Of a stretch of DNA of 64,000 nucleotides, positions 3,643 through 24,967 are shown in pieces. Position 1 is the first letter of the stretch, and each line of letters begins with the position of its first letter. The stretch is taken from positions 238,180 to 302,179 of the forward strand of contig JAOAPV010000005.1 in NCBI GenBank assembly GCA_025463055.1, read 5' to 3'. This DNA is from Candidatus Acidiferrum typicum (GTDB lineage Bacteria; Acidobacteriota; Terriglobia; Acidiferrales; UBA7541). The notes beneath the pieces were generated by a model that saw nothing but the letters and a program-made list of their open reading frames with translations, was not told the origin of the DNA and made no database searches. Position numbers and translations under genes: made by a program.

Positions 3643-5478
3643 TTATGCCGAACCCCGGCCCGTGGCACGGGTGGCGGCAGCCGGACTTGGGCGTGCAGCG
3701 CGTTCAGCGTCAAAGATGGGGATGGTGAAATGAAATTGCGAGCCGCGGCCGACTTCGCTATCGACCCAGATGCGGCCTGCATGAACTTCCACGATGTGCT
3801 TGGCAATGGAGAGACCTAGTCCGGTGCCGCCGAGCTCGCGGGAGCGCGCGGCGTCGACGCGGTAGAAGCGCTCAAAAATGCGGGACTGATCTGTTTTCGG
3901 AATGCCGATGCCGGTGTCGGCTACGGTGAAAACGACTTCACCATCGCGGGGTTTGGCGCTGACCAAGATTTCGCCGCGGGAAAGCGTATATTGCAGGGCG
4001 TTGTCGATCAGATTTTGCAAGACTTCAGCGAGACGGCGACGGTCGCCGGCAATATCCGGGACGCCATTAGTAGGTTGCACGGAAATGGAGATCTCTTTTT
4101 CGATGGCGCGGTGCTGCGCGGTCTCGATGCAGGATTCGATGAGCTGCGAGACGCTGACACGGCGAATCTCCAGCTCGAGGCGGTCAGCATCCATTTTTGA
4201 GAGCTTGAGGAGGTCTTCGGTGAGGCGCGCAAGGCGGCGTGAATGCTCCACGATGATCTCGAGGAAACGCTCGCGATTTTGCGGGTCGTCCATCGCGCCG
4301 GCGAGCAGAGTTTCCGCAAAACCCTGGATGGCGGTGAGGGGCGTGCGAAATTCATGGGAAACGTTGGCGACGAAATCGCGGCGCACTCGTTCAAGTCTGC
4401 GCAGTTCGGTAATGTCGTGGAGCACGACCACGGCGCCGTAGGTTTCACCGGCGCGGACTGCGCCCACCGTAGCGGCAAAAAAATGCTGGCGCAGCGTCCC
4501 GGTAACGATTTCGGATTCCACGCGCGGCTCGCCGGCCAAAACCTTTCGAACGGCTTCGATCAAGTCTGTCTGGCGGACGATCTCAACGAGCGCGCTTCCC
4601 GATTGCGGAGAAAGATCGAGCGCCAAAATTTCGGCGAAGCTCTGATTAGCGAAGACCAGCCGCTCCGCGCCGCTCACGACAGCGACGCCTTCCACCATGC
4701 TGCCGAGAATCGCGGAGGAAAGGTTGCGCTCTTCGGTAAGAGTGCGAATTGTTTGATCAAGGCGGGCAGCGGTTTGATTCAGGGAAGCGCCCAGTTTTTC
4801 GAGCGCGTCGCCAGAGCCGTCGCCGGGTAGCGGGCGAAAATCGCCTTCGGCGACGCGGCGCGAAAACTCCTTCAGGCGCTCGATGCGGTCAGAGAATCCC
4901 AAAGTAACCAGGAGCGATGCCGTACCAGCGAGGAGCAAGATAATGACCGAGGCAAACCACAGTTTGCGACGGAAGGCCACGAGAGTTTCATGCACTGTTG
5001 TCAGCGGAGCGGCGAAGCGCAGGACGATGGGAGTTCCCGCCGCCTCGGATCTAACAGCGTAGTAGAGCAAGTCGCGGCCCATGGTGACGCTTCGACGTGC
5101 TGAGTGGCCTTCGCCCTTAGCTAAGGCGTCGCGAACTTCAGGGCGATCAGCGTGACTTTCCATGGTGCGTGGGTCGGATTGCGAATCGGCGAGCACGTGG
5201 CCGTCAGCCGTGATTACTGTGACGCGCACATTGCTGGCGGCCATTTGGCTGACCCACTGGTCCAGAGCGGCGCGATCTGCAGGGCTGCTGGGAGGAACGG
5301 AGGAGAGCTGAGGCGGCCGGGCTTTAGCGAGGCGCGCGACTGACTCCAATTGCCCCAACGTAGTTCGAGTGTACTCATCGCGGAGAGCGCGCTCGGCAAA
5401 GAAATCGACGGCGACCAGCACGCTCAGAAGCAGTGCGAGGAAAGTAAAGGCGAGTTTCCAGAAAAGATTATGCCGCAC
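3643..5478 (-). CDS. phoR: PhoR-like sensor histidine kinase (HAMP, PAS, HisKA, HATPase)
   Basis: DFVANVSHEFRTPLTAIQGFAETL H-box; N, G1, F, G2 boxes; overlaps response-regulator gene. Confidence 0.93.
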   Translation of the reverse strand: MRHNLFWKLAFTFLALLLSVLVAVDFFAERALRDEYTRTTLGQLESVARLAKARPPQLSSVPPSSPADRAALDQWVSQMAASNVRVTVITADGHVLADSQSDPRTMESHADRPEVRDALAKGEGHSARRSVTMGRDLLYYAVRSEAAGTPIVLRFAAPLTTVHETLVAFRRKLWFASVIILLLAGTASLLVTLGFSDRIERLKEFSRRVAEGDFRPLPGDGSGDALEKLGASLNQTAARLDQTIRTLTEERNLSSAILGSMVEGVAVVSGAERLVFANQSFAEILALDLSPQSGSALVEIVRQTDLIEAVRKVLAGEPRVESEIVTGTLRQHFFAATVGAVRAGETYGAVVVLHDITELRRLERVRRDFVANVSHEFRTPLTAIQGFAETLLAGAMDDPQNRERFLEIIVEHSRRLARLTEDLLKLSKMDADRLELEIRRVSVSQLIESCIETAQHRAIEKEISISVQPTNGVPDIAGDRRRLAEVLQNLIDNALQYTLSRGEILVSAKPRDGEVVFTVADTGIGIPKTDQSRIFERFYRVDAARSRELGGTGLGLSIAKHIVEVHAGRIWVDSEVGRGSQFHFTIPIFDAERAARPSPAAATRATGRGSA

Positions 5479-19735: not shown

Positions 19736-20569
19736 TTACTTGATGCGCGCGACGCGACCTTGCGTCGGGAAGCGCTGAAATTGCAGCGGATCATGTCCCG
19801 GAACGACCCGCTCATGCGATCCTGCCAATTCGATCATGCGCGCTTGATTCTTTACGTTTGCGGCCTGGTCCGCATCGGAAAAGGTGGCGCTGGCTTTGTG
19901 TTCCGCTAAGTTCCGATACAAGTAGCAATTGTCCGAGGCCAGCACGAAATTAGGACTGCCCTCCACGCGAATATACTGCGACGCGAACGTGTGGCGCGCG
20001 CCGGTGTACGCGCGAATTCCTGGAAAAATCTCGACGTTGTCTCCATCGACGAGCCGCAGCCGCCCTTCCGTATTCAGTCGCACCAGTTCCTTGACATCCT
20101 CTGGATCGATTCCGCCATGCTGCCCGCCCGCTTGCCACGCCTCTCCCGTGTAATAGCGGAACTCCTCCTTCTGTATCCACACGGTAGCCTTCGGAAACAA
20201 ATCGATCCCACCCATGTGGTCCCAGTGAGCATGGCTGATCACCACGTCTGTGATTTCTTCCGGCTTTACACCAGCCGAGCGCACCGCTTCATCTGGGCGC
20301 GCGAAGTCGTTCATGGGAAAATACTTCAGCCAGGATTCGCGGTGAAAGCCGCTATCGAACAAGATGTTGCGTCCGCCGCCACGAATCAGCCAAATGACCA
20401 TGGCGATGTCCACTTTCTCGTCGTTGGGCGCCCCCATAATCAGCCCTGAAACTGGGAAGCCTGGTGAACTCGCATAGCGAATCGCCTGGATCGAGTACTC
20501 AGGGCCGTTGGCTGGCGCTACGATTCCAGTCATCAAGCAAAGGCACACGACAAGTAGCAATCGCTTCAT
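19736..20569 (-). CDS. Secreted metallo-beta-lactamase-fold hydrolase (lactonase-like)
   Basis: Signal peptide MKRLLLVVCLCLMTGIVAPANG; HAHWDH motif; LFDSGFH. Confidence 0.85.
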   Translation of the reverse strand: MKRLLLVVCLCLMTGIVAPANGPEYSIQAIRYASSPGFPVSGLIMGAPNDEKVDIAMVIWLIRGGGRNILFDSGFHRESWLKYFPMNDFARPDEAVRSAGVKPEEITDVVISHAHWDHMGGIDLFPKATVWIQKEEFRYYTGEAWQAGGQHGGIDPEDVKELVRLNTEGRLRLVDGDNVEIFPGIRAYTGARHTFASQYIRVEGSPNFVLASDNCYLYRNLAEHKASATFSDADQAANVKNQARMIELAGSHERVVPGHDPLQFQRFPTQGRVARIK

Positions 20570-20667
20570 GAAAACAAGCCTCCGCATAAAATAGCGCGGC
20601 CATTCTAGCCTTCAAGAAACGACTTGCAACAACGGAAATGTAAATAGTGATGCCCTACAGAAGGAGA

Positions 20668-20943
20668 CTACAGAGGCTGGCGCGAAGAACGAACGAAGTC
20701 GCGCAGCACAGTCACGTTGGGGCCGTAAGCGCCGATGCGCCCTGCATCCACAGGCAAACCCAGTTGCTCCGCGAGGTCGAGATCGACGCCCGCATCATCC
20801 AACTCAGAAAGACTAAATCCCTGCGCCGGCAACACGCGATTAATCCCAGTCGGATACACCGGCCGAGGCGGCCGATGACGCTGCCATGGGCGGCGCGCCA
20901 GTTCGTAAAACTGTTTCCAATCGCGTTTGTGCCAAGTTGTCAT
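20668..20943 (-). CDS. Small basic protein resembling ribosomal protein eL13 (L13e)
   Basis: WHKRDWKQF...GFSLSELDDAGVDLDLAEQLGLPVDAGRIGAYGPNVTVLRDF, matching the eL13 pattern GFSLEEL..AG....A..[IL]G[IL].VD.RR. Confidence 0.75.
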   Translation of the reverse strand: MTTWHKRDWKQFYELARRPWQRHRPPRPVYPTGINRVLPAQGFSLSELDDAGVDLDLAEQLGLPVDAGRIGAYGPNVTVLRDFVRSSRQPL

Positions 20944-21300
20944 ATCGTCGTCTTCTACTACTCTTCGACGTAATTCCTGCCCGATTGGATGCTAAGCCTG
21001 CCCTTGGGGTTAACTGTATTTTCCCCGGTGCGCTACTGCATCTCGCGCCGTCAGGAGGCCTAAAGATATACGCCGCCATGCACGCCGCCAGACATTTCAG
21101 CGCTCGTTGTATCAAACCCGTTACGGGGTTAATTGTTTCGCACGGCCTGTTGGCGCTTTGGACTCGTCGGTTTCGCCTCGGAAAGTTGAGTAGAAGGTGC
21201 TTGCCTGCGGGGACTTGTGGCCCTGAACTAGAACGTTGGCTGCAAAGCGACTCGCAGGCGGCTGTATACTACGCGCATCAGCCTACGTTGGCGAGTAAGA

Positions 21301-22566
21301 ATGATGGCTCCTGCGCACATTGTCGTTCACTACCATGAGCTGTGGCTCAAACGAGGCAATCGCCGCTTTTTTTTGCACAAGCTGCGGGAAGCGCTGCGCC
21401 GCGCGCTGGACGGCATCGCTGTCACCCGCATCTCTAAGCCAGCCGACCGCCTGATCATCGAAATTGCCGATGCCGCACATGTCAATGAAGCCTTGCAGCG
21501 CCTGACGCGTGTCAGCGGCATTTCGCACCTGGCCATCGCGCGCGTGTTGCGGCGCCCCGCCTTAAATGACGATCCACTCGACACGATTCGTGCCGCTGCT
21601 TGGGAAGAAATTCGCAGCGAGCAATTCGCGTCCTTTGCTGTGCGGGTCCGCCGCAGCGATAAAGACTTTCCCTTGAACGCTGTGGCTATCGAGCGCGAGG
21701 TCGGCGGCTACCTCTTTGACAAATTGCAGGGCGAAGGCCGCGATGTGCGGGTCGATCTAAAGGCGCCTGCCCTAACCTGCAGGATCGAAATCACCCGCGG
21801 CCCGCTGCTCGTGTACGCGCGCCGCATCATCGGGCCGGGCGGGCTTCCGCCGAACACCGCCGGCCGGCTCGTCTGCCTACTGTCTGGCGGTTTCGATTCT
21901 GCAGTGGCCGCGTACAAAATGATGAAGCGCGGCGCGCATTTGAGTTTCGTTCATTTCTGGGGAGGCGGCGCCGAGGCCGGAGAGTCTTCCGTTCACGTTG
22001 CACGCGAACTGGTCGAGCGCCTGGTGCCGTGGCAGTTCACCGCAAAGCTGTATCTTGTTCCGTTCGAACCTTTGCAGCGCGAAATCGCCGCGCAGGCACC
22101 CGATGCGTTTCGTATTCTTCTCTACCGCCGCCTGATGCTGCGTATAGCGGAACGCATTGCCTTGCGCGGTGGCGGCAAAGGCGTGATCACTGGCGACAGT
22201 CTCGGCCAAGTGGCTTCGCAAACACTGCAGAATTTGCAAGCAGTAGGCGCCATCGCCAGGCTTCCGCTGTACCGCCCCTTAATTGGCGACGACAAACTGG
22301 AAATTCAGGAAATCGCGCGACGTATAGGCACGCACGATATTTCCGAACAGCCCTTTCACGATTGCTGCCCGGTATTTCAACCCAAATCGCCCGCGCTCTT
22401 CGCCACGGCTGAGGCATTGGACGCTGCCGAAGCCACGCTGGACGTTCCGTCCCTTGTGGATCGCGCCATTCGAACCCTCAGCGTCCTGCGTTATCGCTAT
22501 GCGCAAGGAAAAGCCGAGCGCACCGATGTCGAGCACACGAAAGCGAAACACACAACTACCTCTTAG
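21301..22566 (+). CDS. thiI: tRNA 4-thiouridine synthase ThiI (THUMP + PP-loop, no rhodanese domain)
   Basis: THUMP region then CLLSGGFDSAVAAYKMMKRG; VITGDSLGQVASQTLQNL. Confidence 0.93.
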   Translation: MMAPAHIVVHYHELWLKRGNRRFFLHKLREALRRALDGIAVTRISKPADRLIIEIADAAHVNEALQRLTRVSGISHLAIARVLRRPALNDDPLDTIRAAAWEEIRSEQFASFAVRVRRSDKDFPLNAVAIEREVGGYLFDKLQGEGRDVRVDLKAPALTCRIEITRGPLLVYARRIIGPGGLPPNTAGRLVCLLSGGFDSAVAAYKMMKRGAHLSFVHFWGGGAEAGESSVHVARELVERLVPWQFTAKLYLVPFEPLQREIAAQAPDAFRILLYRRLMLRIAERIALRGGGKGVITGDSLGQVASQTLQNLQAVGAIARLPLYRPLIGDDKLEIQEIARRIGTHDISEQPFHDCCPVFQPKSPALFATAEALDAAEATLDVPSLVDRAIRTLSVLRYRYAQGKAERTDVEHTKAKHTTTS

Positions 22567-23341: not shown

Positions 23342-24967
23342 ATGATGGACTTTCCCCTGACCCTTCCCACGCTCCTTGAGCGCGCTGACAAGCTCTTCGC
23401 TCGTGTCGAAATCGTTTCTCGCCGGCCCGATCGCACGATTGTCCGCACCTGCTACGGCGACTTCTATCGCCGCGCTCGCCGCCTCGCCTCGGCTCTAACT
23501 AAACTCGGCCTGCGCCCTGGCGACCGCGTCGCCTCCATGATGTGGAATCACGTTGGCCACCTCGAGGCCTTCTTTGGTGTTCCCTCCGCCGGCGGAATCC
23601 TGCATACGCTAAATTTGCGCCTCCATCCGCACGAAATTGCTGGCATTGCCAATCATGCTGCCGATCGCTTTTTGCTGATTGATGACGTACTTCTGCCCGT
23701 GTTTGAAAAATTCCGCCAAGATGCGCCGTTTGAGCGTGTCATCGTTGTTCCTTATGGCTGTGGCCAAGTTCCCGAAGGCTTTCTAGATTATGAGCAGTTG
23801 CTCGCGGAAGCCGATGATGATTTCCAATATCCCAAGCTCGACGAAAACGACGGGGCTGCGATGTGCTTCACCTCGGGCACCACGGGCTTTTCCAAGGGCG
23901 TTGTTTACTCGCATCGCGCGATAGTGTTGCACTCCTTCGCTGAGGCCATGGCGGATTGTTTTGCCATCAGCCATCACGACACCGTCCTTCCGGTCGCCCC
24001 CATGTTTCACGCCAACGCGTGGGGCTTGCCGTACACCTGCGTGATGACTGGAGCGCGTCTGATTCTGCCGGGACCCAACGTGGACGCGGAAAGCGTGCTC
24101 GACCTAATCGAGCAGGAGCAGGTCACCATCGCCTGTGGCGTTCCTACGGTTTGGCTTGGCGTGCTTTGCGCGCTCGAGAAAAATCGTGACCGCTGGAAAT
24201 TTCCATCGCCGGTTCGCATCGTGATCGGCGGTACCGCTCCGCCCATCGGCCTGATGCGCGCGCTGGACAAACATAACCTGCGCATCATGCACCTTTGGGG
24301 TATGACGGAGACTACTCCTGTCGGAACCGTCGGACGCCTCAAACGCCACATGCTGGACTGGAGCGAAGATCAACGCTACGAGGTTCGTGCCAAACAAGGG
24401 TGGCCTGCGCCCTTCATCGAACTACGCGTCACGCGTAACGACGGCCCCGAAGGAGAAGGGAAAGAAGTGGAAGCCCCGCGCGACGGAGAAACGCCGGGAG
24501 AACTCGAAGTCCGCGGCCCCTGGGTCGCTGCCAGCTACTACAACGCGCCCGACCAATCGCATCGCTGGACCGAGGACGGCTGGTTTAAAACCGGCGACGT
24601 CGCCACCATGGATGACGAAGGCTTCATAAAAATCGTCGATCGCGCGAAAGATTTGGTGAAGTCCGGCGGCGAATGGATCAGTTCCGTCGACCTCGAAAAC
24701 ACGCTAATGGGTCATCCCGCCGTAAAGGAAGCGGCCGTCGTAGGCGTGCCGCATCCCAAGTGGCAAGAGCGCCCGTTAGCCGCTGTGGTCCTGAAAGATG
24801 GTGCAAGCGCCACGCCGGAGGAGCTTCGCGAATTTCTAGCTAAGTCCTTCGCCAAATGGCAGATCCCCGACGCCTTCGTCTTTGTCCCCGAAATACCGCG
24901 TACGTCTGTCGGCAAATTCAAGAAAATCGCCCTGCGCGAACAATTCGCCAACTGGAATTGGGAATGA
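23342..24967 (+). CDS. Long-chain fatty-acid-CoA ligase (AMP-binding)
   Basis: [50 protein letters not shown]; start may be 23318-23342. Confidence 0.95.

Follow-up and report, generated by a model that had tools for sequence, protein, structure and literature searches.

Does a soil bacterium encode a homolog of ribosomal protein eL13 (L13e), and if so, does the product work on the ribosome? The question is raised by a short gene, here called eL13L, in a stretch of 64,000 nucleotides of the Candidatus Acidiferrum typicum genome (the window). In a 2011 table L13e had no bacterial Pfam hits (PMC3056875), and Yutin et al. 2012 list it as an archaeal ribosomal protein outside the bacterial set (PMC3353972). 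We looked for a report of a bacterial eL13 in the open-access literature and found none. The presence of eL13 has been used in arguments on the evolution of archaeal and eukaryotic ribosomes, and eL13L opens a direct test, namely whether the protein is on the bacterial 50S subunit or not. The features of the locus are as follows.

20668..20943, minus strand: the eL13-like gene eL13L, 91 aa (family searches, single copy, dN/dS)
20692..20874, minus strand: the eL13 core, residues 24-84, ungapped against residues 8-68 of Pyrobaculum eL13, with the signature RPPRPV...GFSLSELDDAG...A...GLPVDxxR...GPNVxxLRDFV
20875..20943, minus strand: an N-terminal helix, residues 1-23, W-x-K-x-DW-x-x-F, basic, lineage-specific and unalignable to eL13
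20985..21012, minus strand: a bipartite promoter-like element, TAACCCC-N13-GCATCCAA, upstream of the eL13L ATG (upstream alignments)
19736..20587, minus strand: an MBL-fold hydrolase downstream of eL13L (Pfam, synteny), given as context
21301..22566, plus strand: thiI, the divergent neighbour (Pfam ThiI/THUMP, synteny), given as context and not part of the feature

The open reading frame is present on the minus strand with the sequence quoted for it in the initial annotation. It is a true gene: the start, the stop and the sequence are kept between species, dN/dS is low and the gene order is conserved. This order runs AMP-dependent ligase, RRM protein, thiI (divergent), eL13L, MBL hydrolase and lipA, with thiI found beside eL13L in many carriers, not all, and the hydrolase often, not always, downstream; ribosomal-protein genes are not nearby. 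Compared with the window gene, dN/dS was 0.02-0.10 in 27 of 28 computable pairs and 0.23 against the most distant member, values that are rough since synonymous sites are near saturation. The gene is under strong purifying selection and is more conserved than most of its neighbours. The genomes concerned all seem to derive from metagenome assemblies, and one might thus ask whether eL13L is archaeal contamination or a spurious frame. The same gene order in dozens of independent assemblies refutes this, and the lineage-specific N-terminus, the retained start and stop and the strong purifying selection speak against it as well; we give this explanation practically no probability.

The closest named relatives of the window genome are soil MAGs of Ca. 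Acidoferrales/Acidiferrum (subdivision 2). Carriers make up 77 of the 95 genomes of the order Ca. Acidoferrales (Acidobacteriota; soil) and 77 of the 89 in the gene's own family, f1, the window genome counted. The gene was found in none of the six genomes of families f2 and f3, nor in any of the five genomes of genus g232, where no trace of it lies beside thiI though thiI is present. eL13L is therefore not found in every member of the lineage, as a housekeeping ribosomal protein would be. Each carrier has one copy, G036 excepted, and no copy was found in searches of plasmids and viral contigs. The second copy in G036 (L033, ~4974-5153) is decayed and contains stop codons.

The resemblance to eL13, which the initial annotation had proposed, lies far above chance for residues ~24-86 in NCBIfam, Pfam, phmmer and family-profile searches alike. 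Among 18,950 NCBIfam models the archaeal L13e (PRK12277) was the sole match (E=1.7e-10, 40.4 bits), and L13e (PF01294) was the sole match in Pfam (E=7e-4, 19.9 bits). The profile search suggested earlier as a check thus gave a significant match, but one below both curated cut-offs, the equivalog cut-off of 96 bits in NCBIfam and the gathering cut-off of 24.9 bits in Pfam. Since both were missed, eL13L, as judged from its sequence, is to be classed as a divergent relative of eL13 and not as an equivalog. Ten other free-standing members scored 17-23 bits against PF01294, and archaeal L13e was the best NCBIfam match of the divergent members each time, at 1e-10 to 1e-11 for the members tested. A single-sequence phmmer search of the PDB returned Pyrobaculum eL13 as the best match (E=1.7e-6). 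With the family profile the same chain (9e6q_AH) came top at 4.8e-11, gapless over residues 24-84, followed by dozens of eukaryotic eL13s at 1e-6 to 5e-3, so that similarity to an eL13 of solved structure is significant over the whole core. An hhalign comparison of two alignments, one of which contains members of the other, is circular and was left out of account.

The similarity could instead have arisen by chance or convergence in a helical protein carrying a GFS..EL..AG motif, as found in the repeats of DotG/IcmE. This motif is common, the curated cut-offs are unmet, and DotG/IcmE repeat proteins were the only proteins other than eL13 among the 60 matches listed in the family-profile search of the PDB. 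Their single repeats, however, had i-Evalues of 76 or worse, whereas the eL13 match is colinear over 61 residues, and kinship with DotG/IcmE was rejected as a match to a repeated motif only. Because the motif is so common, the C-terminal half was also searched alone, without GFSLSEL; Pyrobaculum eL13 was still best (E=0.001), the next match being an unrelated protein at 0.2. Every member tested matches archaeal L13e independently at 1e-10 to 1e-11, and the listed fold matches are all eL13. Chance or convergence is thereby largely refuted, and we consider it very improbable.

The N-terminus is a different matter. The initial annotation had equated its HKRDW with an HKDW of human eL13, but no eL13 match was found with residues 1-40 alone, and the archaeal alignment begins at residue 24. 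Within the family the H is variable, and only W4, D8 and W9 of this region are near-invariant. Homology of HKRDW with the eukaryotic HKDW received no support from any test run and was rejected.

The alignment behind an AlphaFold2 model (mean pLDDT 81, pTM 0.71) comprised 36 sequences; Acidoferrales contributed 35 of them and a different acidobacterial family the last (G068), and no archaeal or eukaryotic sequence was included. The model has a helix at residues 6-15, strands at 29-31 and 37-39, and helices at 45-50, 55-61 and 74-88. The predicted architecture would be a basic N-terminal helix followed by an eL13 core. The core probably opens with a beta hairpin; GFSLSEL..AG and A..LGLPVD lie in the two short helices after it, the single invariant Arg sits in a loop, and NVxxLR marks the start of the C-terminal helix. 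In a Foldseek search of the PDB, the 50 matches listed of 123 were all eL13 chains, nearly all eukaryotic, with probabilities of 0.96-1.00 and modest E-values (1.4e-3 to 2e-2, none below 0.001 among the matches listed). The Pyrobaculum chain aligned with a TM of 0.59 (query), 34% identity and an rmsd of 3.0 A. The predicted model hence has the eL13 fold, and so passes the structural check that the initial annotation had proposed, a result not wholly independent of the sequence matches, since AlphaFold may have learned this fold in training. The agreement of curated family models, PDB profile search and fold search supports homology, and that eL13L is homologous to eL13 we regard, taken by itself, as very likely.

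Whether the homolog is a ribosomal protein is a separate question, on which the comparison with known eL13 is instructive. Archaeal eL13 (PRK12277/NF008914, COG4352; 9e6q_AH) is matched by eL13L over 61 residues without gaps and with the same predicted fold, and both share the signature GFSLxEL..G[LV]....A..LGLPVD..R....NV..LR. The archaeal family model has 83 positions, close to the 91 aa of eL13L and the 83 aa of the G068 relative, both of which are free-standing. The differences are that eL13L is bacterial, keeps a single R where archaeal eL13 has RR after VD, has an acidic core and an extra W-x-K-x-DW helix, and reaches 40 of the 96 bits of the archaeal curated cut-off. Eukaryotic eL13 (RPL13; PF01294) shares the core fold and signature but is ~200 aa long, with VDxRRRN, an insertion of ~4 residues after VDxRR and before NVxxLK, and a long C-terminus.

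In the bacterial alignment the eL13 signature columns G42, S44, E47, L48, A51, A58, D66, R69, N76, V77 and L80 are invariant, as are R24 and G74. The VDxRR(R) cluster of eL13 faces rRNA. The reduction of its RRR to AGR, noted at the outset, is correct for the window gene (VDAGR), and the family has VDxxR with one invariant R. Residues 1-38 carry a net charge of +4 to +8 and the core one of -1 to -4 in all members; neither the basic cluster nor the basic core of a ribosomal eL13 is thus found. With an acidic core, a single remaining R and related bacterial domains in non-ribosomal proteins, the rRNA-binding module suggested earlier stays hypothetical.

Yeast eL13 binds domain I of 25S rRNA (PMC12825303). 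When domain I of 23S rRNA was compared between seven carriers and four non-carriers, no carrier-specific insertion was found, and the ~11 columns that split the two sets follow phylogeny. Two members of the non-carrier genus g232 have unusually long 23S sequences: 1388 nt over 742 model positions at L140 (G461 C78:17066-18453), and a gene of 3600 nt at L148 (G463). The extra length is probably an intron or insertion.

The region upstream of eL13L is conserved in its own right. The bipartite element, with the genus consensus GAACCTT-N13-GCATCCAA and CGACC..-N13-GCATC in most deeper members, was present in 46 of 46 homologous upstream regions with a spacer of exactly 13 nt, and its second box ends 29-92 nt ahead of the start codon. 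Across 12 genomes the strict pattern lay upstream of eL13L in 11, the window genome being the divergent one, and its matches elsewhere were at the level of a reversed-pattern control; the element is almost unique to eL13L. No sigma-70-like promoter was called upstream of the gene. The AAC-N16-GCATC arrangement, also written AACC-N15-GCATC, presumably resembles a promoter of an ECF sigma factor. The conserved element suggests conditional expression of eL13L. In G010 (L168) the strict pattern occurs once more, immediately ahead of lon; the other 11 genomes lack this match, and it is a lead only.

Domains of this type occur elsewhere in the phylum. The relative in G068 is free-standing, 32% identical and covers 75 of the 83 archaeal-model positions; the operon whose end it overlaps is of the xanthine-dehydrogenase type rather than ribosomal. 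In G313 and G447 the eL13 domain forms the C-terminal tail of proteins of 708 and 802 aa, scoring above the Pfam cut-off (38.6 and 28.9 bits), and these proteins lie directly upstream of DruE-like helicases (PADLOC DruE E=8e-176 and 1e-108). Similar tails were found on ORFs of ~1400 aa in G226, G366 and G447, and the one tested, from G226, has sigma-70 domains too. The two-gene units of an eL13-tailed protein and a DruE-like DEAD/MZB helicase are:

L108:694-7453 (G313)
L109:755-6164 (G447)
L104:2241-6599 (G226)

The tailed proteins beside these helicases are 700-1450 aa long and had no PADLOC match; searches of plasmids and phage records for the DruE-linked domain found none. The units may possibly represent a Druantia-like defence system. 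The tails (L108, L109, L104, L106, L107) share phylum and core with eL13L, but are fused to large proteins and helicase-adjacent, and the two best keep KRR(R). Since they sit on proteins beside DruE-like helicases, eL13 cores in Acidobacteriota appear from their sequence context to be used off the ribosome as well. A homolog found nearly family-wide in bacteria, together with helicase-associated tails, means that the module is shared across the boundaries between domains of life and is also put to use outside the ribosome.

These observations bear directly on the role of eL13L. We class it as a divergent member of the eL13 family, on a bacterial branch, that is probably RNA- or ribosome-associated and conditionally expressed. 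The gene would be transcribed conditionally from its own alternative-sigma promoter (ECF-like, AACC...GCATC), and the product may bind RNA through its basic N-terminus and eL13 core; its likeliest role would be that of an accessory or stress-time factor working on 50S subunits or their precursor. A ribosomal role is favoured because the protein is free-standing, of near-archaeal length, encoded in single copy, basic at its N-terminus and of low dN/dS. It is disfavoured by the acidic core, by the change of VDxRRR to VDxxR, by the distance from ribosomal-protein genes, by the absence from g232 and f2/f3, by the lack of a carrier-specific 23S domain I insertion, and by a private promoter-like element unusual for a housekeeping ribosomal protein. 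The mechanism as a whole, homology and ribosome or rRNA association combined, is in our estimate a little short of an even chance.

Alternatively, eL13L may be a protein of eL13 fold that acts off the ribosome, a small regulator binding nucleic acid or protein and derived from a mobile bacterial module. The helicase-linked tails, two of them above the Pfam cut-off and retaining KRR(R), point in this direction, as do the acidic core, the conditional-looking promoter element and the operon context of the G068 relative, whereas a free-standing, basic N-terminal, nearly family-universal protein is unlike accessory systems. Such a non-ribosomal adaptor role is nearly as likely as one on the large subunit, which it follows closely. 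For the ribosomal reading in its most specific form, 70S or pre-50S particles of Acidoferrales would carry an eL13 homolog conditionally, from an alternative-sigma promoter, the module occurring also in helicase-linked and possibly defence-related proteins; this combination we consider rather unlikely. With respect to origin, the simplest reading of the sequences, and a plausible one, would be that an ancestor within the Acidobacteriota acquired an eL13 domain of archaeal type by transfer long ago.

Phylum-wide, the family profile matched in 10 of 396 genomes, mostly weakly, and the NCBIfam L13e model in 7 of 297. The weak matches at L043, L044 and L099-L101 were set aside as chance frames or fragments. 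In G395 (contig C22, ~23566-23736; L097/L103) eL13-like fragments lie on opposite strands within ~200 bp, which looks like a fold-back inversion, either an assembly artefact or a broken gene.
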